Shown here: piece by piece, positions 6,962 through 34,995 of the stretch
Position numbering within the stretch: position 1 is the stretch's first letter
Layout of the letters: every line of letters begins with the position of its first letter
Assembly (NCBI GenBank): GCA_937981555.1
Contig: CALJOK010000107.1
Coordinates: forward strand, 1-34,995
Direction of reading: 5' to 3'
Source of the DNA: an uncultured Saprospiraceae bacterium
GTDB taxonomy: Bacteria > Bacteroidota > Bacteroidia > Chitinophagales > Saprospiraceae
Length of the DNA: 34,995 nucleotides
Position numbers and translations under genes: made by a program
Notes under the pieces: model-generated
The model's input: the letters and a program-made list of their open reading frames with translations, nothing else
What the model was told of the DNA's origin: nothing
Databases searched by the model: none

Positions 6962-8398
6962 TTAAAATTGACTTTTCACCGTTTTCAATTTTTCCAACAG
7001 CCATTCTCGTTCTGCTAATCTATTCGTGGATTTAATTTCTTCTCTCATTTGTTTCCACGTTTTTTTATCATCTACTTTTGCATGAATTATTTTTTTGACA
7101 AAACGGATCAGGTTTAAATAATTCTCTCGGTGATAACCCATTTCTTTTTGTCGTTGAATATATCTCGAAAAACTATCCAACAAAGAATCCAAAGCATTGT
7201 ACTCCCCTAACTCAAAATAACTTTTAAGCAACATTCTTCTTGCATCCAAATTATTAAGTACATCTTTAAATTCTACTCGCAAAAGTAACTGCATCGCATC
7301 TTTATATTTCTCCTGTTGAAAATAAAAAAACGCAAAATTATATCGCCAAGTATTTTCTCTCTCGCGAGGGTGAAGGTATTTTTTATACTCTTCTAAAAAT
7401 TGTTCGACCCATTTATTTTCGTTCAAAGCCATTCCCAGTCGAGTAATATTTTTGTAGGAAAAAGAAGATAAAACACCTTCTTCCAAAAGTGTTTCATTTT
7501 TCAAACCTGAACGAAATAATTCAAATGCCTCTCTGATAAAATGACGTTCACCAGAGTTCAATCGCTTGATACAATAATTGATTGCATATAAATAAATATC
7601 TCTAATTTCATTCGGAGGAATAATTTTCCAATATTGTTGAATCAGTTTTTTTAGTTCCTGGAAATGTTTTTCCGATTTTGTAATAGTATTGTTTTTTAAA
7701 TTCTCGTTGGCACCATAACAATGAAAATACAAATCAACAATAGGTACTTTTTCAAACTTACCAGACTCCATCAAATCCAAAATATCAGGTAATAATTTCA
7801 AATCATAAACTTCTTCCGACATCGTTTGATGAGACTGGATTTCACAACCTAATTTCAACATGCTCGCTACAAATGAAATACTCAAATTATCTGCGGTGAA
7901 TTGAAAATTTTTATTTTCCTTTCTCAAGTGAGCAGCCGTGAATCCTGCTTCTTCCATTCCTAATTCGTAATTTTTAAAATAGAATTTACTATCTCGATAA
8001 TTTTCTTTTTCTAAGATCACGCGATTTTGAATAAGTTCTTTTTCAAAAAAAAATTCCATTCCTTTTTTCCGAAATGACTTGCAAAGATATTGTTGAGTTT
8101 GCACTTGGTCATTTTCAAATTCTGCTTGTGTCAGATATTTTTTTAGAATTTTTAATAAAAAAGAAGTGGTGTGTCGTAGTTTTTTTTCATCAAAACCTTC
8201 CTGGTAGACTTTATTATAAACCTTCTCTCTATGTATTGCCATTGGCGGCAAAAAATGAATTGCCTCATCCAAATAATCGAATAATCGAACGACATCCTCT
8301 CGTTGATTGAAATAAGGAGATCGCACAAATTTTCTAAATTCTCGCCAATCTCTTTTTGAAAGTCGCTTTAAAATGGCAACTAGACTACTTTTTTGCAT
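6962..8398 (-). CDS. Large all-helical (TPR-like) cytosolic protein of unknown function
   Basis: 478 residues with no signal peptide or membrane span. It is rich in Lys, Glu, Leu, Phe and Tyr and predicted helical throughout. It opens with LVAILKRLSKRDWREFRKFV then SPYFNQREDVVRLFDYL, an N terminus I associate with a family of uncharacterised proteins common in Saprospiria. Later helices (EQFLEEYKKYLHPRERENTW, FYFQQEKYKDAMQLLLRVEF, ARRMLLKSYFELGEYNALDS) look like TPR-type helix pairs. That would fit a scaffold role, but this is inference. A TATTTTTG box at 8422-8429 on the minus strand may be part of its promoter. Confidence 0.7.
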   Translation of the reverse strand: MQKSSLVAILKRLSKRDWREFRKFVRSPYFNQREDVVRLFDYLDEAIHFLPPMAIHREKVYNKVYQEGFDEKKLRHTTSFLLKILKKYLTQAEFENDQVQTQQYLCKSFRKKGMEFFFEKELIQNRVILEKENYRDSKFYFKNYELGMEEAGFTAAHLRKENKNFQFTADNLSISFVASMLKLGCEIQSHQTMSEEVYDLKLLPDILDLMESGKFEKVPIVDLYFHCYGANENLKNNTITKSEKHFQELKKLIQQYWKIIPPNEIRDIYLYAINYCIKRLNSGERHFIREAFELFRSGLKNETLLEEGVLSSFSYKNITRLGMALNENKWVEQFLEEYKKYLHPRERENTWRYNFAFFYFQQEKYKDAMQLLLRVEFKDVLNNLDARRMLLKSYFELGEYNALDSLLDSFSRYIQRQKEMGYHRENYLNLIRFVKKIIHAKVDDKKTWKQMREEIKSTNRLAEREWLLEKLKTVKSQF

Positions 8399-8622
8399 AA
8401 CATTTTTTTAATTATGATTGACAAAAATAAATATAACCAACTGATTATCAGTAATAACTTAAATTAAAAGATTGATTTATTATGAATTCTGTTTTTGAAA
8501 AAAGGAAAATATTTATTGACTTTTGAACTGTGCACGAGAAAAGTATTACTTCAGAAAATATCAAGCTTGTTTTTTCAACTAACAAATCCTATTTCAATCA
8601 AAGGCATCAAAAAATAAACATT

Positions 8623-11523
8623 ATGAAAAATATAAATTTAATCCTCCTTCTTTTGGTCTGCGTAATACCTTTCCTTTCTTCTGCTCAGGGTTGGGAGAAA
8701 AGTTATGATGCTTATGTTGGTACTGTCTCCACTTCTTCTGACAAGACTCTTGATGGGAATATTATTATTGCGACTAAGCAAAAAGATACCATCACCGACC
8801 TACAAACTTTATTTTTATTTGAGACGGATAGTATAGGGAATGTAGTTGCGGAATATCTTTATCCTACACTTACTGATACTCTTGTAAGAATAAAGGATAT
8901 TCATAGTACTAGTGATGGCAATTACTTGGTGAGTTTTACAAGTGGTCCAAGTCCTGATGATCCATCTTTAGTTGTAAAAGTTTCTCCTAATGGTGACGTT
9001 TTATGGCAAACACCTTTTCCATATGAGCAAGTTTGGGATGTAGGATATATTGAAGAAAATAGTGATGGAGAATATATTCTGGTTGGTTATTCTGATTATA
9101 CACCTTTTGGAAATGGGACGGGGATTGCTAAACTGAGTAATGATGGGAATATCATTTGGGATACCGCATTTGTCCCAGTAATTAATGGAAACACTTCATT
9201 AAGCACTCCGAAAGATTTAATAATTTCCTCAAATAATGATATTAGAATCTTAATTTATTCATCTGACCCAACCCTCATAAAATTAAATAATGATGGAGAA
9301 TTAATTTGGGAAAAAACTTATGATAATGTTGATTACCCTGAATTTCCATCTTCTATTATAGAGTTAGCTTCAGGTGATTTTGTTATTCTAGCTACAAGGT
9401 CTAATGTTGTAGCTAATCCAGGCCAAGGATACTCTAACTCAGACAAACCAAGTTTGATAAAAATAGATGAAGAAGGGAATCAATTGTCATATCATTTTTA
9501 TCCTCAAGGTGAAAAGAAATCATACTTTCATTCTTCACTAGTAGAAACAGAGGATGGAGGGTTAGCATTTGCTGCAGCTACATTTTTTGGCGTTCCTTTT
9601 ACAGATCCTGATTTCCATTTAACAAAAGTTGATTCAGTTGGAAATTTTTTATGGGAAAAAACTTATGGAAGAAGCAAAACAGAATATAAGAATAAATTAT
9701 TTTTAGCAGACGACCAAGGCTTTTATATAACTGGTACTTCTAGGAATTTAAATAATCAAAGTCACCCATATATTGTCAAAACAGATAGTCAAGGAAACCT
9801 TTACTCAAATTCGTTGGAAGGAGTTTTATTTAATGATGAAGACTTTGATTGCATTGAAACCAATGAAGATAAATTGAGTCAATGGTTAATTCAAGCCACC
9901 AAAGGAGATAATCATTATTCTAGCATTACCTCTGAATTCGGAGAATATAATTTCACGCTAGACACCGGTACTTATCAAATAGAAGTTAGTCCTGTTTCTC
10001 CCTACTGGGGACTTTGTGATACTACTTTTGAAGTCACTTATACTACCTTTTTAGATACCATACTTCAAGATGTTCCTGCTCAACCTGAGTATGATTGTCC
10101 GCTTTTGGATGTGTCGATCGGTACTCCCTTTCTTAGACGATGTTCCACTAATGTCTATTCTGTTCAGTATTGTAACAATGGTACTGCCATGGCAGAGGAT
10201 GCTTATATCGAAATAACTTTGGATCCTGATATGACGCTAAATTCTTCCAGCATTCCAACTTCCAGTATTGTTGGTGATGTTTTGACATTTGATTTAGGAG
10301 ATATAGCTTATGATACTTGTGGCACTTTTAATTTTAAAATTTCGCTTGGTGATTCTACTAATTGTGATTCCATTCTATTAGGAGCTACCCATTGTGTGGA
10401 AGCACATATCTATCCAGATTCAATTTGTTTGCCAGGAGGAATGTGGTTAGGTGGTAGTATTGAAGTGGATGCTAATTGTTCTGGAGATTCGATTATTTTC
10501 TACATCCAAAATGTGGGAACTGCTGCTACTCAACCCAATCTGCAATATATCGTTGTGGAAGATGATGTGATTTTATTTGATGGAAATTTTAGTTTAAATC
10601 CAAATGAAGTTGAAACGATTACGATTCTTGCCAATGGTTCCACTTTCCGATTGGAAGCAGAACAAGAGCCGAATCATCCAGGTATGAGTATGCCGAGCGT
10701 TAGTGTAGAAAACTGTGGTTTACCAAATTCCACTTTCTCCTTCGGCTTTGTAAATATTTTCTCAATGGATGATGGAGATCCATTTGTAGATATTGATTGC
10801 CAAGATAATGTTGGAGCATTTGATCCGAATGATAAACAAGGTTATCCTCTTGGCTATGCTGACGAAAATTATATTGATCGAGGACAAGACTTAGAATATA
10901 TGATTCGCTTCCAAAACACAGGAACTGATACTGCTTTCCTTGTTGTGATAAAAGATCAATTAAGTGCGTTTTTAGATATTGCTACTGTTCGTCCGGGAGC
11001 TTCCAGTCATCCTTATGAGTATTCAGTTTCGGGAAATGGATTGATGAGTTTTACATTTAATAATATCATGTTACCTGATAGCAATGTGAATGAACCTGCT
11101 TCGAATGGTTTTGTCAAATTCAAGGTTTCGCAAAAATCTAATTTGGATTTGGAAACTCAAATTCAGAATGAAGCAGCCATTTATTTTGATTTTAATGCAC
11201 CGATTATTACCAATGAGACTTTGCATACGATTGGAGAAGATTTCGTTATCGTAAGTATTGAGAATCCTTTGGAAAAATCATTGGCACAAGTAAAAGTGCA
11301 TCCAAATCCATTTACTCAATTCGTAAATTTTGATGTAGAAGGATTAGAAATAAGAAATGGAACCTTCAAATTATATGATGTAACAGGCAGATTATTGAGG
11401 CTTCAGAATTTCGATAACAATACATTTACATTTCAAAAAAATGACTTACAAGCTGGAATGTATTTCTTCACTATCGAAGAAAGTGGACAATTGATTTCCA
11501 ATGGAAAATTAATTGCGCAGTAA
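8623..11523 (+). CDS. Type IX-secreted multidomain protein with N-terminal propeller and C-terminal sorting domain
   Basis: 966 residues from the ATG at 8623, which starts a signal peptide (MKNINLILLLLVCVIPFLSS, then AQ). The longer frame from a GTG at 8530 adds 31 polar residues before it and is unlikely. Residues ~25-400 hold repeated propeller-like units (LSNDGNIIWDTAF, LNNDGELIWEKTY, VDSVGNFLWEKTYG). These are followed by an SdrD-B-like segment (SSITSEFGEYNFTLDTGTYQ), two DUF11-like sandwiches, and the domain with DPNDKQGYP, YMIRFQNTGTDTA and NEAAIYFDFNAPIITNET. The last ~75 residues are a Por_Secre_tail sorting domain (VKVHPNPFTQFVNFD, LYDVTGRLLR, LQAGMYFFTIEE). It is expected to cross the outer membrane by type IX secretion and become surface-attached or released. 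The propeller part resembles the one in the giant protein at 31795. Confidence 0.9.
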   Translation: MKNINLILLLLVCVIPFLSSAQGWEKSYDAYVGTVSTSSDKTLDGNIIIATKQKDTITDLQTLFLFETDSIGNVVAEYLYPTLTDTLVRIKDIHSTSDGNYLVSFTSGPSPDDPSLVVKVSPNGDVLWQTPFPYEQVWDVGYIEENSDGEYILVGYSDYTPFGNGTGIAKLSNDGNIIWDTAFVPVINGNTSLSTPKDLIISSNNDIRILIYSSDPTLIKLNNDGELIWEKTYDNVDYPEFPSSIIELASGDFVILATRSNVVANPGQGYSNSDKPSLIKIDEEGNQLSYHFYPQGEKKSYFHSSLVETEDGGLAFAAATFFGVPFTDPDFHLTKVDSVGNFLWEKTYGRSKTEYKNKLFLADDQGFYITGTSRNLNNQSHPYIVKTDSQGNLYSNSLEGVLFNDEDFDCIETNEDKLSQWLIQATKGDNHYSSITSEFGEYNFTLDTGTYQIEVSPVSPYWGLCDTTFEVTYTTFLDTILQDVPAQPEYDCPLLDVSIGTPFLRRCSTNVYSVQYCNNGTAMAEDAYIEITLDPDMTLNSSSIPTSSIVGDVLTFDLGDIAYDTCGTFNFKISLGDSTNCDSILLGATHCVEAHIYPDSICLPGGMWLGGSIEVDANCSGDSIIFYIQNVGTAATQPNLQYIVVEDDVILFDGNFSLNPNEVETITILANGSTFRLEAEQEPNHPGMSMPSVSVENCGLPNSTFSFGFVNIFSMDDGDPFVDIDCQDNVGAFDPNDKQGYPLGYADENYIDRGQDLEYMIRFQNTGTDTAFLVVIKDQLSAFLDIATVRPGASSHPYEYSVSGNGLMSFTFNNIMLPDSNVNEPASNGFVKFKVSQKSNLDLETQIQNEAAIYFDFNAPIITNETLHTIGEDFVIVSIENPLEKSLAQVKVHPNPFTQFVNFDVEGLEIRNGTFKLYDVTGRLLRLQNFDNNTFTFQKNDLQAGMYFFTIEESGQLISNGKLIAQ

Positions 11524-24849: not shown

Positions 24850-25722
24850 TCAAAAGCTGGAAGATAGTTTCTCTAAATTGTCCTCCAGTTTTTTTGGTAC
24901 AAACCCAAATGTAAATGTATTGTTAGAATCCAATGAAACATCTGCAGGACGTTTCGCTGGCATGTTCACATCTTTTTGCAAAGACGGAATAATTAAGTTT
25001 TTATCCAATCCAAAATGTTCCGCCATCTGCGTTGCAAATTCAAAACGAGACATTCTTTCTAGCCCACCTAAATGAAAAATGCCCTTGGCTTTATTGTTGA
25101 GCAAAGCAAAAATTCCTTGCGCTGCGTCACCTCCAAAAGTGGCAGTTCGGTATTCATCAGTAAAGCAATAAACATTTTTCCCTGCCTGCAAATTTCGCAA
25201 CCAAGCATTCATAAAACCTAATCCATTTTTAGGCAAACCATACATCAAAGGCATGCGAGCAATAATTGCTTTTGGAAAAACTTTCAAAACTTTTTGCTCT
25301 GCTTCTAGTTTTTGTTTTCCATAAACCATAATTGGATTCGGTGAACCAGTTGTGGTATACGGCGCATTTTTTCCATCAAAAACTAGGTCGGTGGAAGTGA
25401 ATAGGAATGAAATATTTTGCTCAGCGCAATTACTAGCCAAGTGTTCTGTTACTTTGACATTGATGATTTCTGAAAGAGGATTTTGTTCGCAGTAATTTGG
25501 ATTTGAGTTAGCTGCTAAATGTAAAATGGCATCAGGTTGATGTTTTTTTAGAAAATTAGAAACGGCGGATTGATTGGTCAAGTCAAGTTGTTCGAGTTGG
25601 ATATTTTTTAGCTCAAGTTTAGTTTTGTTATAAATTCCTATAAGTTGAAAATCACTTTGCGCATGTTCAGCGATGTGCCAACCGAGGAAACCTGAGATAC
25701 CTGTAACGAGTAGTTTTTTCAT
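24850..25722 (-). CDS. RmlD-like sugar-nucleotide/NAD-dependent reductase
   Basis: 290 residues of the extended SDR fold. The nucleotide-binding loop is TGISGFLG (residues 7-14). ILHLAANSNP and SFLFTSTDLVFDG follow, then the active-site pair YGKQK (YxxxK), then PKAIIARMPLMYG. The pattern matches RmlD (dTDP-4-dehydrorhamnose reductase) and related substrate-binding SDRs, without a clear sign of the true sugar. It is the last gene of a three-gene run, six bases after the multipass protein gene. Its link to the transporter is unknown. Confidence 0.85.
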   Translation of the reverse strand: MKKLLVTGISGFLGWHIAEHAQSDFQLIGIYNKTKLELKNIQLEQLDLTNQSAVSNFLKKHQPDAILHLAANSNPNYCEQNPLSEIINVKVTEHLASNCAEQNISFLFTSTDLVFDGKNAPYTTTGSPNPIMVYGKQKLEAEQKVLKVFPKAIIARMPLMYGLPKNGLGFMNAWLRNLQAGKNVYCFTDEYRTATFGGDAAQGIFALLNNKAKGIFHLGGLERMSRFEFATQMAEHFGLDKNLIIPSLQKDVNMPAKRPADVSLDSNNTFTFGFVPKKLEDNLEKLSSSF

Positions 25723-25728
25723 GTGTTT

Positions 25729-26937
25729 TTACTTTTCGATTAAATGGTCAAATGGGTCTGCTAATTTTTCTTCCGTTGGTTCGAATTCTTGTGATTTATT
25801 TATTCTTAAGGTTTCTTCTAGTTCTTTTCGATATTTTAAAATGGAAGGAATAATTAATAAAATTATAGAAATCATTATTAAAGTAAAATACTGATAAGAT
25901 TCTATATTAATATTGGATATGAAAAAATATCGCCCTAAATAAATAGATCCAAAAAATCCACCTAGGACTATTCCTTTTGCTCGCTCTAAATAATTATGAG
26001 TTAAAATAGTCAAAAGAATAGGAATAAATAAAACCTCATAATTGAGAAATGAAATAGTTGTAGTAAAAGTGATAACGGATTGATAACCAAATTTTAAGGC
26101 AACAAAATCCACAAAGTAAAGCAACATTAATATCGACAACCCCCAAATTAGTGCTTTAATTATATCAATTTCTCTATCATTATTTTTTCCGAAAACCCAA
26201 TTGGCCACTCCTCCAAAAACAATAAAAGATAAAATAAAAAAGAATAATAGAAGGGAAATACCTTGATCATCTTCAGGCTCTAAAATTTGAAAAACTTCCG
26301 CATTAACAGAACCTAAAATTGATATAAAGATTACTCCGATTAAAACAAAAATGAACTTCTCATTTTTTTGTCCATTAATTGGTTTTGGAATTTTGGATGG
26401 TTTTAATTTTAAAATTAAATATACGACTGCAATTACTCCAGTAATTAAAAGAATGTATGTCCCTTCAATGAAATCTATTCCTGTAAAGATCATTCTGACT
26501 AAAAAAAATCCCATTAATGGTACACCAAGTAAAAATGAACTAAGTAAGAATGACTTTATTTTTAAAGCATTAACTGAATTAACATATTCTCCCACCCGAA
26601 TAAATATGGTAATAAAAAAGGTGCAACTAGCCATCTGAAAAATAATAACACCTAACATACTTCCAAATATATTATTGGTAAAAACTAATACTCCTCCTCC
26701 AACAATTACAACCATTGCATTCCTTAGAGTCAAGCGAAAGTCGGTGTAGTTATTTGCTAAAAAACCTCCAACAAAAAGAGTAATGCCATTGATCAAAAAA
26801 TATTTTTCATCAAACCATTCAAGTATTTCTAATGATTTTGCATAGTCTTCCACAGTACTATAAATGTGCTGTTGCAGTATTAAGATACAAAGAACTACCC
26901 CAAACTCCTTCGGATATTTTTCAAGAAATTTATACAT
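25729..26937 (-). CDS. Multipass membrane protein, possibly MFS-like transporter
   Basis: 402 residues with about twelve hydrophobic segments, for example FGVVLCILILQ, YFLINGITLFVGGFLA, AMVVIVGGGVLVFTNNIFG, YILLITGVIAVVYLILKL, FIFVLIGVIFISILGS and FTLIMISIILLIIPSIL. There are short loops and a charged C-terminal tail of about 30 residues. The number and size of spans would fit a major-facilitator-type transporter, but I see no clear signature and cannot name the family. It starts five bases after the stop of the CHT1-like symporter gene, so translation is probably coupled and a shared physiological role is likely. Confidence 0.7.
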   Translation of the reverse strand: MYKFLEKYPKEFGVVLCILILQQHIYSTVEDYAKSLEILEWFDEKYFLINGITLFVGGFLANNYTDFRLTLRNAMVVIVGGGVLVFTNNIFGSMLGVIIFQMASCTFFITIFIRVGEYVNSVNALKIKSFLLSSFLLGVPLMGFFLVRMIFTGIDFIEGTYILLITGVIAVVYLILKLKPSKIPKPINGQKNEKFIFVLIGVIFISILGSVNAEVFQILEPEDDQGISLLLFFFILSFIVFGGVANWVFGKNNDREIDIIKALIWGLSILMLLYFVDFVALKFGYQSVITFTTTISFLNYEVLFIPILLTILTHNYLERAKGIVLGGFFGSIYLGRYFFISNINIESYQYFTLIMISIILLIIPSILKYRKELEETLRINKSQEFEPTEEKLADPFDHLIEK

Positions 26938-26942
26938 CTTTT

Positions 26943-28526
26943 TTAATTTTCCATTTTTTCTAAAACCCTTGGCGCTGAAATATTTTGCGTCAATCTCGAC
27001 ACCACAATAATTGTCACCAACCCACTCACCATCGCCAAAGTCCGAAATGGAAACAAGACCGTCTCTCCTTCCATCATCGGATAAGGAATCATATTTGGAA
27101 TATTTAAAGTGGGTTCGCCTCCTCCAAATCGTAAAATAAAACTAACTGCAAAACCTGAAATCGCTCCAATCGAATTTGCCTTTTTATCAAACAATGCACA
27201 AACCAACGCAGGAAACAAGAGACAATAAACGAAGTCGCTACATAGCACCCAAAGATCATAAACACTTTGCACATTGATCGCCAAAAGTGTTGCGGCAATT
27301 CCGATAATCCAAATGCAACGCTTAATGACTTTATCTAAATTAGATGGAGAAATATCTGGTTTGACCAATGGACGAAATACATTCCAACCTGCCATCGATG
27401 AAGCAGACAGGATGGAAGAATCCACCGACGACATCACCGCTGCTGCTACAGCTCCCAAGCCAATCGTAGCTATCCAAGGATTTGTCAAATATCGAATGAC
27501 ATGTGGCAAAATGGAACTATCACTTCCGGGGATTGCTCCGATCGTTTCCCAATCTGCCACTCCTCCGATAATCCCAATCAAGACTGCTGGAATCGCTGCA
27601 ATGATGCAAACAACTCCTGCAAATATAGATAATCGAACAGCTGTATTTTCATCCTTCGAAGAGAGCACTCGCTGAAAATATACTTGCCATGGAATTCCTC
27701 CAAACATCAAAAGCAATGCATAATCCCACCACATCCAATAGTAACTTCCTAAATTCTCATGACTTGGAATAAACGTAGCTGTTGCTCCATTTTTTTCAAC
27801 ATAAGCTGCCCAAGCAACATCCCATCCACCTACTGAATTCATCGCAACGGGAACAACTAATGCTAGTCCTCCCAATAGTAAAATCATCTGCACGACATCT
27901 GTCAAGGCTACTGCCCACAAACCTCCAATAGCCGTGTAGGCGATAGCAATAATAGCTGAAAGTATAATCGCAGGTTGTGTATCCAAACCAAGGACAGTTC
28001 CAAACGTCGTTCCCAATGCTGTAAGAATTGCCGCTGTCCAAAATATTTCTCCTGACAATGCGGGGATGAATAATAGAGCTGCCATGCGTTTTCCAAAACG
28101 TTGTGAAAGTGGATCAAGCATAGTTCTGAATTGATGACGTCGCATGATTCTGGCAAAAAATAATCCACCGATAATTAAACTAATCGCATAGCCCCAAGGT
28201 GCTTGTACCCATACCAAACCCGTTTTGGCAGACTCGGCAGTTCCATTGATATAACCTCCTCCGACCCATGTTGCGCTCATCGTAAATATTCCAATAAAAA
28301 GTGGAATAGATCTTCCAGCGAGCATGGTGTCGTTTTTATCTTTTGCTTTTTGTTTGCCTGCGACATAGGAGCCGAAGTAAAATATTAAAGCATAAAAAAA
28401 CATCATGGCAATGAATCCTGACCACAAAACTGGAGCACCCGTTGCGTATAAATAAAGTCCGCAAACGGCTAAAAATATTAATAGTAAAATGGTGGGGAGT
28501 AACTTTGAGCGGTTTTGTAAATTCAT
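26943..28526 (-). CDS. Sodium:solute symporter, CHT1-like (putative choline transporter)
   Basis: 527 residues with about 13 predicted spans, in the sodium:solute symporter (SSS/SLC5) family. From memory, several long segments nearly match the animal high-affinity choline transporter CHT1 (SLC5A7): ATWVGGGYINGTAE (85-98), LLFIPALSGEIFW (151-163), GGIPWQVYFQRVLSS (276-290), AAVMSSVDSSILSASSM (362-378), GGGEP (468-472) and FPFRTLAMV (492-500). This is closer than ordinary bacterial PutP-type symporters would be. Sodium-coupled choline uptake is the likely role, and the phosphatidylcholine synthase gene near 30655 supports it. Proline or another quaternary amine cannot be excluded. It is the first gene of a tight three-gene operon. 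Confidence 0.88.
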   Translation of the reverse strand: MNLQNRSKLLPTILLLIFLAVCGLYLYATGAPVLWSGFIAMMFFYALIFYFGSYVAGKQKAKDKNDTMLAGRSIPLFIGIFTMSATWVGGGYINGTAESAKTGLVWVQAPWGYAISLIIGGLFFARIMRRHQFRTMLDPLSQRFGKRMAALLFIPALSGEIFWTAAILTALGTTFGTVLGLDTQPAIILSAIIAIAYTAIGGLWAVALTDVVQMILLLGGLALVVPVAMNSVGGWDVAWAAYVEKNGATATFIPSHENLGSYYWMWWDYALLLMFGGIPWQVYFQRVLSSKDENTAVRLSIFAGVVCIIAAIPAVLIGIIGGVADWETIGAIPGSDSSILPHVIRYLTNPWIATIGLGAVAAAVMSSVDSSILSASSMAGWNVFRPLVKPDISPSNLDKVIKRCIWIIGIAATLLAINVQSVYDLWVLCSDFVYCLLFPALVCALFDKKANSIGAISGFAVSFILRFGGGEPTLNIPNMIPYPMMEGETVLFPFRTLAMVSGLVTIIVVSRLTQNISAPRVLEKMEN

Positions 28527-28644
28527 TGTTATAAATTGTAGTATGACTTTCTAAATCAATTCTTTTCGTTTTTAAAAATCGAATATAAGAAATCAAATTT
28601 TAATCTTAATTTTGATATTATTATTTCACAAAAAAAATAAAAAT

Positions 28645-29454
28645 ATGAAAACGTTATTATCTATAATTATTTTCTTGTTTAGCTTTGGAAATCTTCAAAG
28701 TCAACATCAAGATAACATGGAACAAAGAGTTATTCACCTACTTGATATTTCAGGTTCGAAGGAATCATTTGATGTCGTACTCAATCAAATGATTGACTTA
28801 CAAAAAGAAATTTACACGGATGAATTAAGTGATGAATTTTTTAGAACGTTTAGAGAAGAAGTGATAAGCATGGGTCGTGAGGATTTATACAAACTGATTA
28901 TTCCTATTTATGTCAAACATTTTACGCTAGAAGAAATTGAAGGTATCATTGCCTTCCAAGAATCCGAAATTGGAAAAAAGATGACTGAAAAGATGCCAAT
29001 AATTTTAAACGAGTCCATGCAAAAAGGAGCAATTTGGGGAGAAGAATTAGGTGAAAAAATTGCTGATAAAATTTTAGCATCAGACGAATATAAAATGAAC
29101 TCTGAACCATTAGGATGCGACAAAGTTAAAAACGGGAAGTGGAAAATCAAGATGCCTGGCTCCGACCTTCATGCCATTGTAAATAGAAAAGAGGATCGTC
29201 AAATGGAAAGTTTGGATGGAAGTGATATTTGCAGTTTTAAAGTTGAATGGTTGAGTCCCTGTACATATTCAATGACTGTAATTAAATGCGAAGACGACAC
29301 AATTGAAAAGGAAATGAAGAAACATGTTTTGATTACTAATATTTACGAAGTGACGGAAAATGGGTATAAATTTATCACTAAGTTTGAAGATGAGGAAAAC
29401 GATATGATGAAAGGAGAAGCCATCAATGTTGGAAAATCAAATTCTAAAATGTAA
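28645..29454 (+). CDS. Exported DUF2059-domain protein
   Basis: 269 residues from the ATG at 28645 (MKTLLSIIIFLFSFGNLQS signal peptide). A TTG further upstream (28612) would add eleven residues and is less likely. Residues ~30-150 form a helical DUF2059 domain: QMIDLQKEIYTDELSDEFFR, LYKLIIPIYVKHFTLEEIEG, then IIAFQESEIGKKMTEKMP. The second half is a beta-rich region with CDKVKNGKWKIK and three more Cys (SDICSF, SPCTYS, IKCEDD), giving four Cys in a probably periplasmic protein, so disulfides are possible. The role of DUF2059 proteins is unknown. It diverges from the choline-transporter operon and may share its regulatory gap; TAATTTTG at 28607-28614 is a possible -7 box. Confidence 0.85.
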   Translation: MKTLLSIIIFLFSFGNLQSQHQDNMEQRVIHLLDISGSKESFDVVLNQMIDLQKEIYTDELSDEFFRTFREEVISMGREDLYKLIIPIYVKHFTLEEIEGIIAFQESEIGKKMTEKMPIILNESMQKGAIWGEELGEKIADKILASDEYKMNSEPLGCDKVKNGKWKIKMPGSDLHAIVNRKEDRQMESLDGSDICSFKVEWLSPCTYSMTVIKCEDDTIEKEMKKHVLITNIYEVTENGYKFITKFEDEENDMMKGEAINVGKSNSKM

Positions 29455-29472
29455 AAATCTTTATTAAAAAAA

Positions 29473-29511
29473 TAAAAGCCTCTAAGTCTAAAAATGATTT
29501 AGAGGCTTTTA
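29473..29511. terminator. Bidirectional terminator between convergent genes
   Basis: A perfect 13-bp stem (TAAAAGCCTCTAA/TTAGAGGCTTTTA) surrounds a 13-base loop. CTTTTTTTA follows on the plus side and a T-rich run follows on the minus side. It lies between the stops at 29454 and 29518. Confidence 0.88.
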
Positions 29512-29517
29512 CTTTTT

Positions 29518-29976
29518 TTAGAACACCTCCAAAATTTTTATCGGCTTATCATTAAAAGAGATCGTCTCGCCTTTTTCTTTTCCCATCATTTCCTTAGCTA
29601 ATGGAGCTTGGGGAGAAATCGCGAAGTATTTTTTTTCATCAACCAAAATTCTACCCGCAGCGATGGAGATAAAATAATTTCCAAAATCAGTTTGCACCAC
29701 ACTTCCGAAAGCAACTCGATCAAAAATTTTGTCGGCTTTTATTTGACTTAAAAACAATTCTAGTTTTCGAGCCTCTGAAAGTTGTTGGGCATTTTTGTCT
29801 CGTTCCATATGCATCATGGCGCGACCAGTTTCAAATTTATCTCCAGCGCTACTTTTGGTTTCATTATTAGCGCTGTCTTGAGCATCGTCCATCATTTTTT
29901 GAAAGACTGATATTTTTTGATAAATCAATTCTTCGACTTCATCGAGGAGGGCTTCTTTGATTTCGTATTTGTCCAT
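29518..29976 (-). CDS. GreA/GreB-family protein
   Basis: 152 residues. The N-terminal half is a helical hairpin with an acidic tip (SSAGDKFETG, keeping a D-x-x-E spacing) and the C-terminal half is an FKBP-like Gre domain (VAFGSVVQTDFGNYFISIAA, FAISPQAPLAKEMMGKEKGE, then TISF). It resembles the Bacteroidota family often mislabelled '3-oxoacyl-ACP synthase'. A role at the RNA polymerase secondary channel, such as relief of backtracked polymerase, is inferred. The start codon lies two bases after the stop of the upstream gene, so translation is probably coupled. Confidence 0.82.
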   Translation of the reverse strand: MDKYEIKEALLDEVEELIYQKISVFQKMMDDAQDSANNETKSSAGDKFETGRAMMHMERDKNAQQLSEARKLELFLSQIKADKIFDRVAFGSVVQTDFGNYFISIAAGRILVDEKKYFAISPQAPLAKEMMGKEKGETISFNDKPIKILEVF

Positions 29977-29978
29977 TT

Positions 29979-30551
29979 CTAATCGTTATTTTTTAAAGCT
30001 GATCCAGCTTCTAGATGTACTTCAAGTAAATTTTCTTCGAGATAAATTAGATCTTGAATCACAAAAAGAAAAATATCTTTATCTGCTTGATCCGCACTTT
30101 TAATATTTTTAAAAATAAAATCTGAAAGTCTTTTCACTTGTTCGTTGTATGCTATTTTAAACTCATCTATATTGGATAAGTTTTTAATCAGATCAAAATC
30201 GGTCATTTTAAAATCATTGCTAATAAATGATTTCCAAGAAGTATTTCCAATCAACGCTACTTTAAATCCATTTGTCATTCCTAAAAAATCACCAATGACT
30301 AACTCATCATCATCCATGTAAAACCTAATCGAGTCAGCCAATCTATTATGAACAGGAATTATTTTTTTTAATTCCATAATATTCTCTTCATGTTCTTTTT
30401 GAATAGATTGAATAACATGACTTAAAAAAACATTATCTTCTTTATCTTTTTGCCAATTATTAATCCACAAAGCAATCATAATTCCTAAAATAACTGGAAT
30501 CATTTCTTTGGTAATTTGTAAGAGACTCTTTTTTATTTTGGAAAAATCCAT
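29979..30551 (-). CDS. Small single-span membrane protein, DUF6090-like
   Basis: 190 residues from the ATG at 30551; a TTG four codons upstream is possible but weaker. A membrane span lies near residues 15-33 (EMIPVILGIMIALWINNWQ), and the pattern 'LGIxIALxINNW' followed by a charged helix recalls DUF6090. The rest is helical, with many Asp, Lys and Asn, and presumably faces one side of the membrane as a coiled region. The function is unknown. It ends two bases before the Gre-like gene and diverges from the phosphatidylcholine synthase gene. Confidence 0.72.
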   Translation of the reverse strand: MDFSKIKKSLLQITKEMIPVILGIMIALWINNWQKDKEDNVFLSHVIQSIQKEHEENIMELKKIIPVHNRLADSIRFYMDDDELVIGDFLGMTNGFKVALIGNTSWKSFISNDFKMTDFDLIKNLSNIDEFKIAYNEQVKRLSDFIFKNIKSADQADKDIFLFVIQDLIYLEENLLEVHLEAGSALKNND

Positions 30552-30593
30552 GAATAAATTCAATATTTATATAATTTCAAATAATTTCGCAAG

Positions 30594-30612
30594 TTCGTTT
30601 TAATAAAACGAA
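30594..30612. promoter_or_regulatory. Palindrome in the divergent gap, possible operator
   Basis: TTCGTTTT-AAT-AAAACGAA is a perfect 8-bp inverted repeat with a three-base centre, located between the divergent starts at 30551 and 30655. The absence of a downstream T tract and its position argue for a protein-binding site rather than a terminator. No matching regulator is known. Confidence 0.35.
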
Positions 30613-30654
30613 TCGTAAAAATATAAAAATCGCTACGTCAAAACAGATAAACAT

Positions 30655-31359
30655 ATGAATACTTTTTCTCCTTTGGAAAAAACGTTGGCTTGGAGTGTCC
30701 ACTTATTCACAGCTTCAGGGTTGGTGGCTGGCTTTATGGCCATACTTGCGATCAATGAACAAGAGTGGCGAGTGGCTATGTTGTGGTTAGTGGCTTGTTT
30801 AATTATTGATGGAGTGGATGGTACATTTGCCCGTCTTTTTAATGTAAAAGAAGTGCTGCCGGAGATAGATGGAAAAACGATCGATTATGTGATTGATTTT
30901 GCGACCTATGCCATTATTCCTGCTTACTTTTTCCATGAAGCACACTTGGTCAATGACGAATGGAATCTATTTTGTACTTCGGTAATTCTACTCGTTTCTG
31001 CGGTTTATTATGGAAAAACAGGAATGGTGACCGATGATATGTACTTTCTAGGATTTCCAGTTTTATGGAATATGGTGGTATTCTTTTTATTCTTTGTTTT
31101 TGACTTTTCCTCGACTTGGAATATAGTTTTTATTCTTATCTTTGCAGCATTACATTTTGCTCCAATAAAATTTGTTTACCCCAGTCAAGCGAGCAGATTC
31201 AAAAAGCTTACATTATTTAATACCGTTGTTTTTATTGGCTCTTGTATTGCTATTTTATGGCTCTATCCTGAACGAAATAATTGGTGGATAGGCAGCATAA
31301 TTATATCAACGGGGTACTATGCCATGATGGCAATTTATAATACTTGGATAGAAGAATAA
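30655..31359 (+). CDS. pcs: Phosphatidylcholine synthase (CDP-alcohol phosphatidyltransferase)
   Basis: 234 residues with about eight hydrophobic spans, an inner-membrane enzyme. The catalytic signature is D52-G53-x2-D55-G56-x2-A59-R60-x12-G73-x3-D77-x3-D81 (read from DGVDGTFAR, VKEVLPEIDGKTIDYVIDF). The 12-residue spacing and extra DG distinguish phosphatidylcholine synthases from ordinary CDP-alcohol phosphatidyltransferases, which have DGx2ARx8Gx3Dx3D. The 'VKEVLP' segment is also typical of Pcs. The enzyme condenses choline with CDP-diacylglycerol to phosphatidylcholine and CMP, using a divalent metal held by the Asp residues. The CHT1-like transporter gene starts about 2 kb away, giving a plausible choline source. 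Confidence 0.88.
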   Translation: MNTFSPLEKTLAWSVHLFTASGLVAGFMAILAINEQEWRVAMLWLVACLIIDGVDGTFARLFNVKEVLPEIDGKTIDYVIDFATYAIIPAYFFHEAHLVNDEWNLFCTSVILLVSAVYYGKTGMVTDDMYFLGFPVLWNMVVFFLFFVFDFSSTWNIVFILIFAALHFAPIKFVYPSQASRFKKLTLFNTVVFIGSCIAILWLYPERNNWWIGSIIISTGYYAMMAIYNTWIEE

Positions 31360-31701: not shown

Positions 31702-31794
31702 TGTATCTCCTTAAGGTAAGCTAGTTCTCTTGTTTACCATTATATCTACCCACCGATATTATTTAAATAATTCTTGCTTTTTTAAGTGAATCCC

Positions 31795-34700
31795 ATGAAC
31801 AACATGCTAAGGAAATGTTTGTATTCTTTTCTTTTGCTATTAGCTTCTCTAATAGTTAGCCATTCTGCTTTTGGTCAAGATTTGACGATTCATCCTACTT
31901 TCAATAATATGTATGGAGGTGGAGGTGTTGAAGAATTATACTCGGCATTCGAGACATTAGATGGCGGTTTTATGATTGGGGGAAAATCTCAACAAAATAT
32001 GGTACTCGGCAATATTAATGATCCATCTTGTGGTGGTTCAGACTATTGGGCGATTAAAACAGACATAGATGGTAATACTGTTTGGGATAGTATTTATGGT
32101 GGAATCTCTAATGAAGATTTTCAAGATATGATACAAACCGCAGATGGTGGTTTCGCTATGGTTGGACGAACAAATTCTGCTGCAGGTTGTGACGTTCCTG
32201 CTGGTAATCCTTTTGTCCAGGATGGCTGGGTAGTAAGAACTGATTTAAATGGAAATATTTTATGGACAACAAGAATAGGAGGAACTCAAGGAGATATATT
32301 AAGATCGGTTATTGAAACAACAGATGGTAATATTTTAGTCGGAGGTGAACTCAATGTATTTCAAACTACTGCTGATTATTGGATTACAAAATTAGATGGT
32401 GTTACAGGTGCTGTCATATGGCAAAATACAATTGGTGGAACAGCTCTAGAATCCCTTTCAGAAGTGAGAGAAACCTCTGATGGATATTTTTTAGGAGGTT
32501 ATTCTTTTGATGACCTAGATGATGTTGCAGGTGATAAAAGTGACATAAACTATGGAAGTTTTGACTATTGGGTCGTAAAGGTAGATTTGAATGGAAACTA
32601 TGTTTGGGATAAGTCTTATGGTGGGACTAATAATGATCAACTATGGGCAATGGAAGTTACTGCCGATGGAGGTTTAATTTTAGGTGGGTTTTCTAGCTCT
32701 ACCAATTCAACTCTTCCCAATAATAAAACAGGCGCAGCGCTGGGTTCAAATGACTACTGGTTAGTCAAAACTGATTTAAATGGGAACAAATTATGGGATA
32801 AAACTTTTGGAGCAAGTGGTGATGATCAACTATTAAGTTTAGATGTAATTAATATAAGTTCTTGTAATACTAATTATCTTTTAGCAGGAAACTCAAGTTC
32901 TAGTAATGAAGGAGATTTTTCAAATACAAACAAAGGAGGAAGTGATTACTGGTTAGTATTTGTTGATAACTTAGGTAATCTCATTTGGGAAAAAAATTAC
33001 GGTGGCGATCAATTTGACGGTGCCTGGGATTTCAGAAGAAATTCTGATGGAAGTTATATTGTAGGTGGTTACACTATTTCAGATAATAATGGAGACGTTC
33101 CTTCTAACTTTGGAATCCTTGATAACTGGGCATTTAAACTTTCTTGTAACTTCAGTATTCCTGATTTGCCAGATGAAGAAGTTTGTGAAGGTGAATCAAT
33201 TACCCTAACTGCAGTTACTGGAACTTGTGATAATTGTACTTATCAATGGGATGCTAATGGAGGAAATGCTTCGACGAATTCAATCACCGTTACTCCTACC
33301 GCAACAACGACCTATACAGTTATCGTTACTAATGCAACTTGTTGTCCCGATACAACTTCAGTAACAGTCGAGTGGCATCCCTCTCCTACTGTTGACTTAG
33401 GACCTGATACTGAGATCTGTCCTGGTGAATCAATTCCATTGGATGCGACGACTCCAACTTGTACTTATGCTTGGTCAACTGGGGCAACTACCCCAACTAT
33501 TGATCCGACGATGGCTGGTACTTATTCCGTTACGATTACTTGTGAATTTGGATGTACTAGTACTGATGAAATTATTATTAGTCCAGGAATTGTTCCAACC
33601 GTTGATTTAGGAAATAATACGACTTTGTGCGCAGGAGATAGTCTTTTATTGGATGCTGGAGCTGGAGGAATGAATTATAATTGGTCAACTGGGGCAACAG
33701 CTCAAATGATTTACGGAAATGACGAAACTAACTATTGTGTTACCGTTACATCTGTAGATGGATGTACAACTGTTGATTGTATTTCAATAAATTACGATAC
33801 GATTCAGGTTCTTCTACCAAATGATACGATGCTTTGTCCGGCAGAGACCTTAGTTGTCTCAGCAGAAAATAATGGATGTACTTATAATTGGTCAAATGGA
33901 CCAACGAGTCAATCAATTACTATTTCAACTGCAGGAACTTATACGGTTACAGTTACTTGTGGACCAGCTTCATGTACTTCTGTCGATGAAATTACAGTAG
34001 GTTATTTTTCTGTAAATTCTCCACAAAACGTCTCTGTGGAAATCTGCCAAGGGGACTCACTTTTTGTAAATGGTGTTTGGCAATTTGTAGCTGGAAATTA
34101 TTCAGATACATACATGACTGCTGATGGTTGTGATTCGATTGTAAATACAAATTTGGTGATTCATCCGATTTTTTCTACGAATGTGCCAATGGAAATTTGT
34201 CAAGGGGATTCACTTTTTGTTGGTGGAAATTGGCAATTTAGTAATGGTAGTTATCCTGATACTTTGATGACGATTGATGGGTGTGATTCTGTCATCATTA
34301 CTGACTTAATTGTTAATCCGATTTTTTCTCAAAATGTGCCGATTGAAATTTGCCAAGGCGAAACTTACTTTGCTCAAGGCGCTGCACAAAATATAACAGG
34401 GATTTATTTTGATACTTTGATGACGGTGAATAGTTGTGATTCTGTGATCATTACTGACTTGATTATCAATCCAACTTTTTCTCAAAATGTACCTGTCCAA
34501 ATCTGTCAAGGGGAAACTTTCTTTGCTGGTGGGGCAATTCAATCTACCTCTGGAAGTTATCCTGATACTTTAATGACCGTCGAAGGATGTGATTCAATTA
34601 TCATTACCGACTTAGTCGTCAATCCTGTTTTCTCGCAAAATATTCCGATGGAAATTTGTCAAGGGGATTCGCTTTTTGTTAGTGGGGATTGGCAATTTAG

Positions 34701-34995
34701 TAATGGTAGTTATCCTGATACTTTGATGACGATTGATGGATGTGATTCAATTATTATTACTGACTTAATTGTCAATCCGATTTTCTCGCAAAATATTCCT
34801 GCCGAAATCTGTCAAGGGGATTCGCTTTTTATTAGTGGGGATTGGCAATTTACTGATGGTAGTTATCCTGATACTTTGATGACGATTGATGGGTGTGATT
34901 CTGTCATCATTACTGACTTAATTGTTAATCCGATTTTTTCTCAAAATGTGCCGATTGAAATTTGCCAAGGAGAAACTTACTTTGCTCAAGGCGCT
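31795..34995 (+). CDS. Giant secreted adhesin-like protein with tandem ~51-residue repeats (3' end beyond window)
   Basis: The frame is open for 1067 residues from the ATG at 31795 to the window edge. An ATG three codons later is an alternative start. A signal peptide (LRKCLYSFLLLLASLIVSHS, then AFGQ) leads to about 420 residues of propeller-like repeats (TDLNGNILWTTRIGG, VDLNGNYVWDKSYGG, TDLNGNKLWDKTFGA, VDNLGNLIWEKNYGG). Four PKD/Ig-like modules follow, each opening with a C-x-G/A-E-(S/T/D) type segment and a YxWSTGAT or YNWSNGPT core. From residue 750 come seven tandem units, ICQGDSLFV...GSYPDTLMTIDGCDSVIITDLIVNP, the last cut by the window. The style is typical of Saprospiria giant surface proteins, usually exported by type IX secretion with a C-terminal sorting or gliding-associated domain, which would lie outside the window. 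Confidence 0.88.
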   Translation, partial: MNNMLRKCLYSFLLLLASLIVSHSAFGQDLTIHPTFNNMYGGGGVEELYSAFETLDGGFMIGGKSQQNMVLGNINDPSCGGSDYWAIKTDIDGNTVWDSIYGGISNEDFQDMIQTADGGFAMVGRTNSAAGCDVPAGNPFVQDGWVVRTDLNGNILWTTRIGGTQGDILRSVIETTDGNILVGGELNVFQTTADYWITKLDGVTGAVIWQNTIGGTALESLSEVRETSDGYFLGGYSFDDLDDVAGDKSDINYGSFDYWVVKVDLNGNYVWDKSYGGTNNDQLWAMEVTADGGLILGGFSSSTNSTLPNNKTGAALGSNDYWLVKTDLNGNKLWDKTFGASGDDQLLSLDVINISSCNTNYLLAGNSSSSNEGDFSNTNKGGSDYWLVFVDNLGNLIWEKNYGGDQFDGAWDFRRNSDGSYIVGGYTISDNNGDVPSNFGILDNWAFKLSCNFSIPDLPDEEVCEGESITLTAVTGTCDNCTYQWDANGGNASTNSITVTPTATTTYTVIVTNATCCPDTTSVTVEWHPSPTVDLGPDTEICPGESIPLDATTPTCTYAWSTGATTPTIDPTMAGTYSVTITCEFGCTSTDEIIISPGIVPTVDLGNNTTLCAGDSLLLDAGAGGMNYNWSTGATAQMIYGNDETNYCVTVTSVDGCTTVDCISINYDTIQVLLPNDTMLCPAETLVVSAENNGCTYNWSNGPTSQSITISTAGTYTVTVTCGPASCTSVDEITVGYFSVNSPQNVSVEICQGDSLFVNGVWQFVAGNYSDTYMTADGCDSIVNTNLVIHPIFSTNVPMEICQGDSLFVGGNWQFSNGSYPDTLMTIDGCDSVIITDLIVNPIFSQNVPIEICQGETYFAQGAAQNITGIYFDTLMTVNSCDSVIITDLIINPTFSQNVPVQICQGETFFAGGAIQSTSGSYPDTLMTVEGCDSIIITDLVVNPVFSQNIPMEICQGDSLFVSGDWQFSNGSYPDTLMTIDGCDSIIITDLIVNPIFSQNIPAEICQGDSLFISGDWQFTDGSYPDTLMTIDGCDSVIITDLIVNPIFSQNVPIEICQGETYFAQGA
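34042..34995 (+). repeat. 153-base tandem repeats encoding 51-residue units
   Basis: Units begin (at the Ile codon of ICQG[D/E]) at 34042, 34195, 34348, 34501, 34654, 34807 and 34960, an exact 153-base period with no indels. Divergence is uneven: 34243-34383 and 34855-34995 differ at about one base in 141, although they are four units (612 bases) apart, showing recent duplication or gene conversion. The window ends inside the array, so the copy number is unknown. Confidence 0.95.

Follow-up and report, generated by a model that had tools for sequence, protein, structure and literature searches.

Saprospirales that carry a choline symporter of the CHT1 type (CHT) together with a phosphatidylcholine synthase (Pcs) probably build membrane lipid from scavenged choline, because in many of them the two genes stay together. 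Among lipids, phosphatidylcholine is a hallmark of eukaryotes; in bacteria it is scattered and best known from Proteobacteria. The pair is described here from a stretch of 34,995 nucleotides, called the window throughout, of an uncultured Saprospiraceae bacterium (contig CALJOK010000107.1 of assembly GCA_937981555.1), in which the symporter gene (26943-28526) and the putative pcs gene (30655-31359) lie on opposite strands, as an initial annotation made from the letters alone had placed them. That annotation read the pairing as choline uptake plus phosphatidylcholine synthesis, a reading now backed by the identities of both proteins, by their co-occurrence in samples of 298 and 395 genomes and by the linkage of their genes; scavenged choline is very probably turned into phosphatidylcholine by these two proteins. 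The sodium gradient would drive choline into the cell through the symporter, and Pcs, a membrane enzyme, would yield phosphatidylcholine and CMP by condensing this choline with CDP-diacylglycerol. In Saprospirales the two genes often stay paired, in most cases diverging from a single short intergenic region, and they appear to have passed together, as one unit, to other lineages of Bacteroidota.

In a phmmer search of PDB sequences, the symporter matches sfCHT of Salimicrobium flavidum (9rws) at E 1.5e-192 and the human CHT1 entries at about 4e-115, the next SSS member being vSGLT at 2.6e-17. In the text available of PMC13220886, sfCHT is a bacterial homologue of human CHT1 whose choline transport is Na+-dependent and blocked by hemicholinium-3 (HC-3), its W99A variant is dead, and Bacteroidota homologues (Cyclobacterium, Algoriphagus) already appear in an alignment. 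Pairwise, 302 of 509 positions (59.3%) are identical between sfCHT and the window symporter, as are all 13 of the binding, Na+ and tunnel residues checked, which are those taken from that paper (R84, A97, T98, W99, V100, Y126, W176, Q226, W298, Q303, R304, S307 and W445). Choline is put forward as the substrate because of this identity to a proven choline transporter and the retention of all the checked residues. What differs is the setting: the available text ties sfCHT to no lipid synthesis, whereas the window gene is tied to pcs.

A tree of 64 hand-picked rows, two duplicate loci having been left out, places 62 CHT rows, sfCHT included, apart from two other SSS rows (100/100, on a very long branch); many of its interior forks are open and the bootstrap is not fully settled. 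The equivalents of W99, W176, W298 and W445 are constant across the 62 CHT rows, save one gap at W445, and neither W99 nor W176 is present in the two other SSS proteins; other positions vary mildly, with S307 replaced by A and V100 by I in many rows. An SSS gene beside Pcs in one further genome (G609, locus L102) was considered as a CHT and rejected, the tree placing it outside the CHT group. The window's own genome contains eight other SSS matches at 1e-5 (23-31% identical, best E 1.4e-18), and the window symporter is the only CHT-type protein found there. Taken with the pairwise comparison, the placement with sfCHT supports the assignment of 26943-28526 as a CHT1-type sodium/choline symporter, which is what the initial annotation had proposed.

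The assignment of the second protein has to be weighed against the alternative that it is another CDP-alcohol phosphatidyltransferase, acting on serine, glycerol phosphate or inositol phosphate, and makes no phosphatidylcholine. Five NCBIfam Pcs models match it with 136.1-171.1 bits (1.3e-39 to 3.5e-50), about three- to four-fold the 41.3 bits of pssA in the same scan; archaetidylserine synthase reaches 38.8 bits, and at 0.01 no pgsA match was seen in what is a profile comparison only. By profile it is thus closer to Pcs than to phosphatidylserine or phosphatidylglycerophosphate synthases, a grouping with which would, by the initial annotation, have refuted the reading. The alternative draws on the curated Pcs cut-offs of 300-440 bits, none of which is reached by any of the five models, so that the protein belongs to none of the five NCBIfam groups (Agro, Ps, Borr, Leg, Brdy). 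The general Pfam model PF01066 gives the protein only 16.9 bits against a cut-off of 22. With the PssA model TIGR00473 it likewise stays under the cut-off (41.3 against 107). Among control proteins, Sinorhizobium meliloti Pcs, annotated as such and 37% identical to the window protein, passes its own group model with 436.8 bits and scores 134-240 on the other four, and the Pcs of Halomonas (partial), Pseudomonas aeruginosa and L. adelaidensis likewise pass their own models and score 119-182 on the others. Since the cross-group scores of the controls span 119-240, the window protein appears about as distant from each Pcs group as the groups are from one another.

The catalytic motif points the same way. 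The initial annotation had reported an exact Pcs signature; the Pcs call itself holds by profile, motif and tree, while the spelling DGx2DGx2ARx12Gx3Dx3D does not, the window protein reading D-G-V-D-G-T-F-A-R-(12)-G-(3)-D-(3)-D, that is DG-x-DG-x2-AR-x12-G-x3-D-x3-D, with the same spacing as in S. meliloti Pcs. The pattern D[GAS]-x-DG-x2-AR-x12-G-x3-D-x3-D is found in 71 of 76 Pcs rows, the window's among them, and misses L169, L197, L202, L207 and L208; in a 23-row alignment D52, D55, G56, A59, R60, G73, D77 and D81 are invariant. A PF01066 search finds three other CDP-alcohol enzymes in the same genome: a PssA (L004, contig C56; 104.2 bits, just under the cut-off of 107), a BT1523-type phosphatidylinositol phosphate synthase (346.1 bits against 350) and one of unclear kind. 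None of these three matches a Pcs model at 1e-5 or the Pcs pattern, and the gap from AR to G in the PssA, read from the translation by eye, is 8. The idea that the window protein serves as the cell's PssA was ruled out by the presence of this separate enzyme. On contig C11 (L005), the phosphatidylinositol phosphate synthase gene sits between two membrane-like open reading frames (ORFs), hinting at inositol lipids in the organism.

The AlphaFold2 model of the protein (pLDDT 91.6) finds its nearest solved fold, by Foldseek, in phosphatidylserine synthase (7b1k/7pow; E 2.2e-5, TM 0.65, 17% identity), which could be taken in favour of the other-transferase alternative. The predicted fold agrees with the right superfamily and cannot separate Pcs from PssA, because the PDB sequence search returned no Pcs among its matches. 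A Pcs tree was built from 60 of 79 collected rows (59 Pcs rows and one PssA row as outgroup), 19 near-duplicates or spare outgroups having been removed by hand. In it a single clade (98/97) unites the 46 Saprospirales-type rows and excludes both the Pcs of S. meliloti, Halomonas and P. aeruginosa and a branch of Legionella and two other Bacteroidota groups (GTDB families f110 and f122); the root is unsure, and the tree carries little weight on Pcs versus PssA, because the PssA row sits on a saturated branch. With profile, motif and tree supporting a phosphatidylcholine synthase, with separate PssA and phosphatidylinositol phosphate synthases in the genome, and with the gene associated with that of a choline transporter, another transferase activity seems very unlikely.

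The two genes co-occur strongly. In a sample of 298 genomes of the order, searched for Pcs at E 1e-10 or better and for CHT at 1e-60, 42 have Pcs and 40 have CHT; 36 have both, six Pcs only, four CHT only (G491, G565, G607 and the 45%-identical G644) and 252 neither (Fisher p 1.3e-35). The high-quality subset (n=252) divides into 31, three, three and 215, respectively. In a class sample of 395 genomes, Pcs was found in four and CHT in five: all four Pcs genomes have CHT, against one of the 391 others (G306). The survey of relatives that the initial annotation had called for has thus been made, with CHT in 36/42 Pcs genomes of the order and 4/4 in the class sample. A phylum sample (n=395) gave the Pcs profile in 26 genomes; among 24 Pcs genomes outside the order checked for CHT (23 from this sample, and G327), six have it, including all three with a Saprospirales-type Pcs (G327, G760 and G838).

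Linkage of the two genes is far beyond chance. Of the 36 genomes of the order that have both genes, 16 place them no more than 2.2 kb apart (12 divergent, four tandem), against a rough chance rate of 0.0008 for such linkage of two given genes, and two more have them farther apart on one contig. For named genomes, 141 relatives turned up and the best 80 were examined, some of them from genomes that the order sample also contains: CHT lies within 6 kb of Pcs in 47 of these 80 loci (45 divergent, two tandem), 32 of the 47 pairs having at most 300 bp between aligned ends. Adjacent pairs occur in Flavilitoribacter nigricans (54 bp) and Phaeodactylibacter xiamenensis (68 bp). In the window the genes are likewise divergent, 2128 bp apart, with three other ORFs of more than 100 aa in the gap. 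Because relatives are often divergent with 54-300 bp between aligned ends, co-regulation, a point on which the initial annotation did not decide, becomes more plausible; inspection by eye, without motif statistics, found no common motif suggesting a shared operator in divergent intergenic regions with gaps below 400 bp.

Across 41 neighbourhood loci, the window included, only CHT and Pcs recur broadly; no third conserved gene was found, the next family being an HI0933-like flavoprotein in 8/41 (ORF calling had missed Pcs in L073, L088 and L096, where it was placed by the Pcs search). This bears on the possibility that phosphatidylcholine acts mainly as a phosphocholine donor for surface glycans or proteins rather than as a bulk membrane lipid. 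In other bacteria, according to the available text of PMC10434233, proteins modified with phosphocholine are linked to Pcs and PmtA pathways; against this stands the lack of any third family recurring broadly beside the pair, the lesser families being mostly unidentified and phosphocholine transferases not having been searched for. A donor role is, on balance, unlikely. A further alternative is that co-occurrence reflects nothing more than the shared ancestry of a few related genomes. The Pcs carriers of the order sample come from two GTDB families, and the Fisher p-values treat genomes as independent, ignoring relatedness; yet the pair persists while its neighbours change, it exists in two gene orders, and both genes turn up in distant lineages that nest in each of the two trees, which leaves shared ancestry by itself the least probable of the alternatives, with hardly a chance of accounting for the pattern.

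Several observations nonetheless weigh against the reading of choline import coupled to Pcs. Of the order's 42 Pcs genomes, six (G405, G452, G480, G497, G514 and G675) have no detectable CHT, and none of the six has a BCCT carrier at 1e-20; in G405, G514 and G480 a contig end lies within 204, 236 and 641 bp, respectively, on the upstream side of Pcs. Half of the 36 genomes that have both genes (18) carry them on different contigs. Among the 80 named-genome loci, 33 have no nearby CHT: eight end within 1.7 kb on that side, and 25 have at least 1.7 kb of upstream DNA with no adjacent CHT. Neolewinella loci L167, L170 and L177 hold Pcs with no CHT within 6 kb. In G675 (L086, about 7689-8990) an RmlD-like gene adjoins Pcs with no CHT between them, as if CHT had been lost from the locus; neither CHT at 1e-60 nor BCCT at 1e-20 was found in that genome, so that Pcs can persist without CHT or is fed in another way. 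Lower-scoring Pcs elsewhere in the phylum are without CHT in 18 of 21 cases and with it in three. Finally, the window's genome has one BCCT carrier, which might also bring choline; such carriers occur in 16 of 38 genomes examined, this one among them.

Imported choline could instead feed the synthesis of glycine betaine for osmoprotection, the nearness of the symporter to Pcs being incidental. In G565 and G607 (L104, L105), which have CHT without Pcs, CHT lies near a betaine-aldehyde dehydrogenase (NF009725, 760.2/748.8 bits against a cut-off of 593; TIGR01804, 655.6/661.1 against 668.6) and an enzyme of the choline dehydrogenase type; in G565 the latter is a BetA that passes its cut-off, in G607 a GMC enzyme with a weaker match. 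CHT adjoins BetA above its cut-off in G810 (L227), and a BetA-like enzyme lies beside CHT and Pcs in G475, whereas G306 has CHT with no bet genes and no Pcs over 14 kb. The loci of G565, G607 and G810 share the transporter family with the window and differ in having betaine-aldehyde and/or choline dehydrogenases instead of Pcs as neighbours, and CHT beside betaine genes is an independent pointer to choline as its substrate. Sixteen of the 42 order Pcs genomes have a BetA-like match at 1e-30, yet none of the 42 reaches the BetA cut-off; the other 26 have no match at 1e-30, nor has the window's genome, other choline-oxidising enzymes not having been searched for. Loci L068-L187 hold BetA/BetB relatives at 1e-60 in four cases (L082, L104, L105 and L169), against CHT-Pcs pairs in dozens. 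Glycine betaine as the main fate of choline was accordingly rejected for the window's organism, which has no BetA homologue at that threshold, and the osmoprotection alternative is very unlikely, phosphatidylcholine synthesis being preferred.

Carriers outside the order add to the picture of a pair that travels together. G760 and G838, of another class (f110), and G327, of another order (f3), have the divergent pair with 103-111 bp between the genes. G760/G838 are sister to Phaeodactylibacter in both trees (Pcs 99/93, CHT 99/89). G327 lies inside the Saprospirales-type Pcs clade beside G539 and, in the CHT tree, beside the metagenome-assembled genome (MAG) loci L166/L171/L176; each of these partners is present in one of the two trees only. 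These placements are consistent with the pair having passed as a unit from Saprospirales to other Bacteroidota lineages, as it appears to have done. The other Bacteroidota Pcs (f110, f122), found by the same Pcs profile, are different: the tree contains nine of the 21, none of which is within the Saprospirales-type clade; they lie close to Legionella Pcs on a weakly supported (97/57) branch, and most of the 21, as noted, go without CHT. Because G768, G810 and G960, congeners of G760/G838, hold this other Pcs type, the cassette may have replaced it in G760/G838. The fuller proposal, on which we consider the balance to be even, is that a mobile two-gene cassette, a divergent CHT1-type pump and a distinct Bacteroidota Pcs, lets Saprospirales and distant recipients of the whole cassette rebuild their membranes with phosphatidylcholine from environmental, perhaps algal, choline, and in one recipient lineage replaces the Pcs type of its congeners. 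Saprospirales-type Pcs is also seen in MAGs labelled Pyrinomonadaceae (Acidobacteriota; L148, L169), either by transfer or through mislabelled bins.

The features of the window that concern the pair are listed in Table 1. The three proteins encoded between symporter and Pcs are not thought to be part of the system. The symporter gene, the gene for the 402-aa protein and that for the RmlD-like reductase (24850-28526) follow one another on one strand with gaps of 5-6 bp and may well be co-transcribed; RmlD-like genes also come after CHT in several near relatives, and the 402-aa protein has no match in the other fetched loci at 1e-6. A recent foreign origin of the pair in this genome was considered and set aside, its compositional difference being only mild: GC is 41.7% in CHT and 36.7% in Pcs against 33.9% in the window, and third-position GC is 34-35% in the two genes against 27-32% in four others. 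Farther along the plus strand, 31786-34995, open at the window end, covers the beginning of a large protein whose N-terminus is signal-like, perhaps a surface adhesin; a 153-bp tandem repeat array in it (34163-34970, 5.3 copies) encodes CQGDSLF-type repeats. A 997-aa protein encoded at 8530-11523 (plus strand) combines DUF7619 with a sorting domain for Por (type IX) secretion at its C-terminus.

Table 1. Features at and around the symporter-Pcs locus, with window positions
Feature	Position	Strand	Basis or remark
CHT1-type (SLC5A7-like) Na+/choline symporter (predicted), 527 aa	26943..28526	-	PDB match, pairwise residues, tree
Phosphatidylcholine synthase (Pcs; predicted), 234 aa, CDP-alcohol phosphatidyltransferase superfamily	30655..31359	+	profiles, controls, AlphaFold2 model, fold match, tree
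Pcs catalytic motif, DGVDGTFAR-x12-G-x3-D-x3-D	30808..30897	+	pattern match, x12 spacing as in Pcs
DUF2059 protein, signal-like N-terminus, between symporter and Pcs	28612..29454	+	among the fetched loci, in the window only
Weak GreA/GreB C-terminal match (below Pfam cut-off), between symporter and Pcs	29518..29976	-	common to L108, L109 and L110
194-aa protein of unknown kind, between symporter and Pcs	29979..30563	-	counterpart in L108 (58%)
402-aa protein of unknown kind, hydrophobic by eye, 5 bp past symporter, same strand	25729..26937	-	
RmlD-like NAD(P)-dependent reductase, final gene of same-strand run	24850..25722	-	adjoins symporter in several near relatives

The closest known arrangement is that of Sinorhizobium and Brucella, in which, according to the available text of PMC8371380, the ABC choline importer ChoXWV feeds Pcs. 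The likeness lies in a choline importer supplying a Pcs that condenses choline with CDP-diacylglycerol, the S. meliloti enzyme being, as noted, 37% identical to the window's; the difference lies in the importer, an ABC system there and here a sodium symporter of the SLC5A7/CHT1 kind, a direct neighbour of pcs in many genomes, and in the host phylum, Bacteroidota. What is new, on the best reading, is the lineage, the importer and a gene pair that stays together, in most cases divergent, and seems able to be transferred. The open-licence PMC literature yielded no report of Pcs in Saprospiria, the species descriptions of subscription journals, in which polar lipids may be reported, lying mostly outside it; the available text of PMC13086504 has pcs among the genes searched for. 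To laboratory E. coli, phosphatidylcholine is a lipid of foreign origin (PMC8027125). That phosphatidylcholine is not a usual Bacteroidota lipid, as the initial annotation stated, fits PMC5167729, which in the text available calls a phospholipid-rich profile unusual for aerobic Bacteroidetes; the same text qualifies the statement, since it reports that Rhodothermus and Fodinibius/Aliifodinibius contain phosphatidylcholine and, for Salinibacteraceae, lists 'diphosphatidylcholin', these being formerly Bacteroidetes. We infer that f110 and f122 are lineages of this type.

According to the available text of PMC10384058, the order Saprospirales is large and has its highest prevalence in saline water. 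If the proposed pathway is true, they would constitute an added choline sink in aquatic systems, and the lipid would be expected to appear in choline-fed cells alone. Bacterial homologues of the choline transporter of human neurons would also gain a likely function. Carriers are available in culture (Flavilitoribacter nigricans DSM 23189, Phaeodactylibacter xiamenensis KD52 and Neolewinella species), which makes the reading directly testable.

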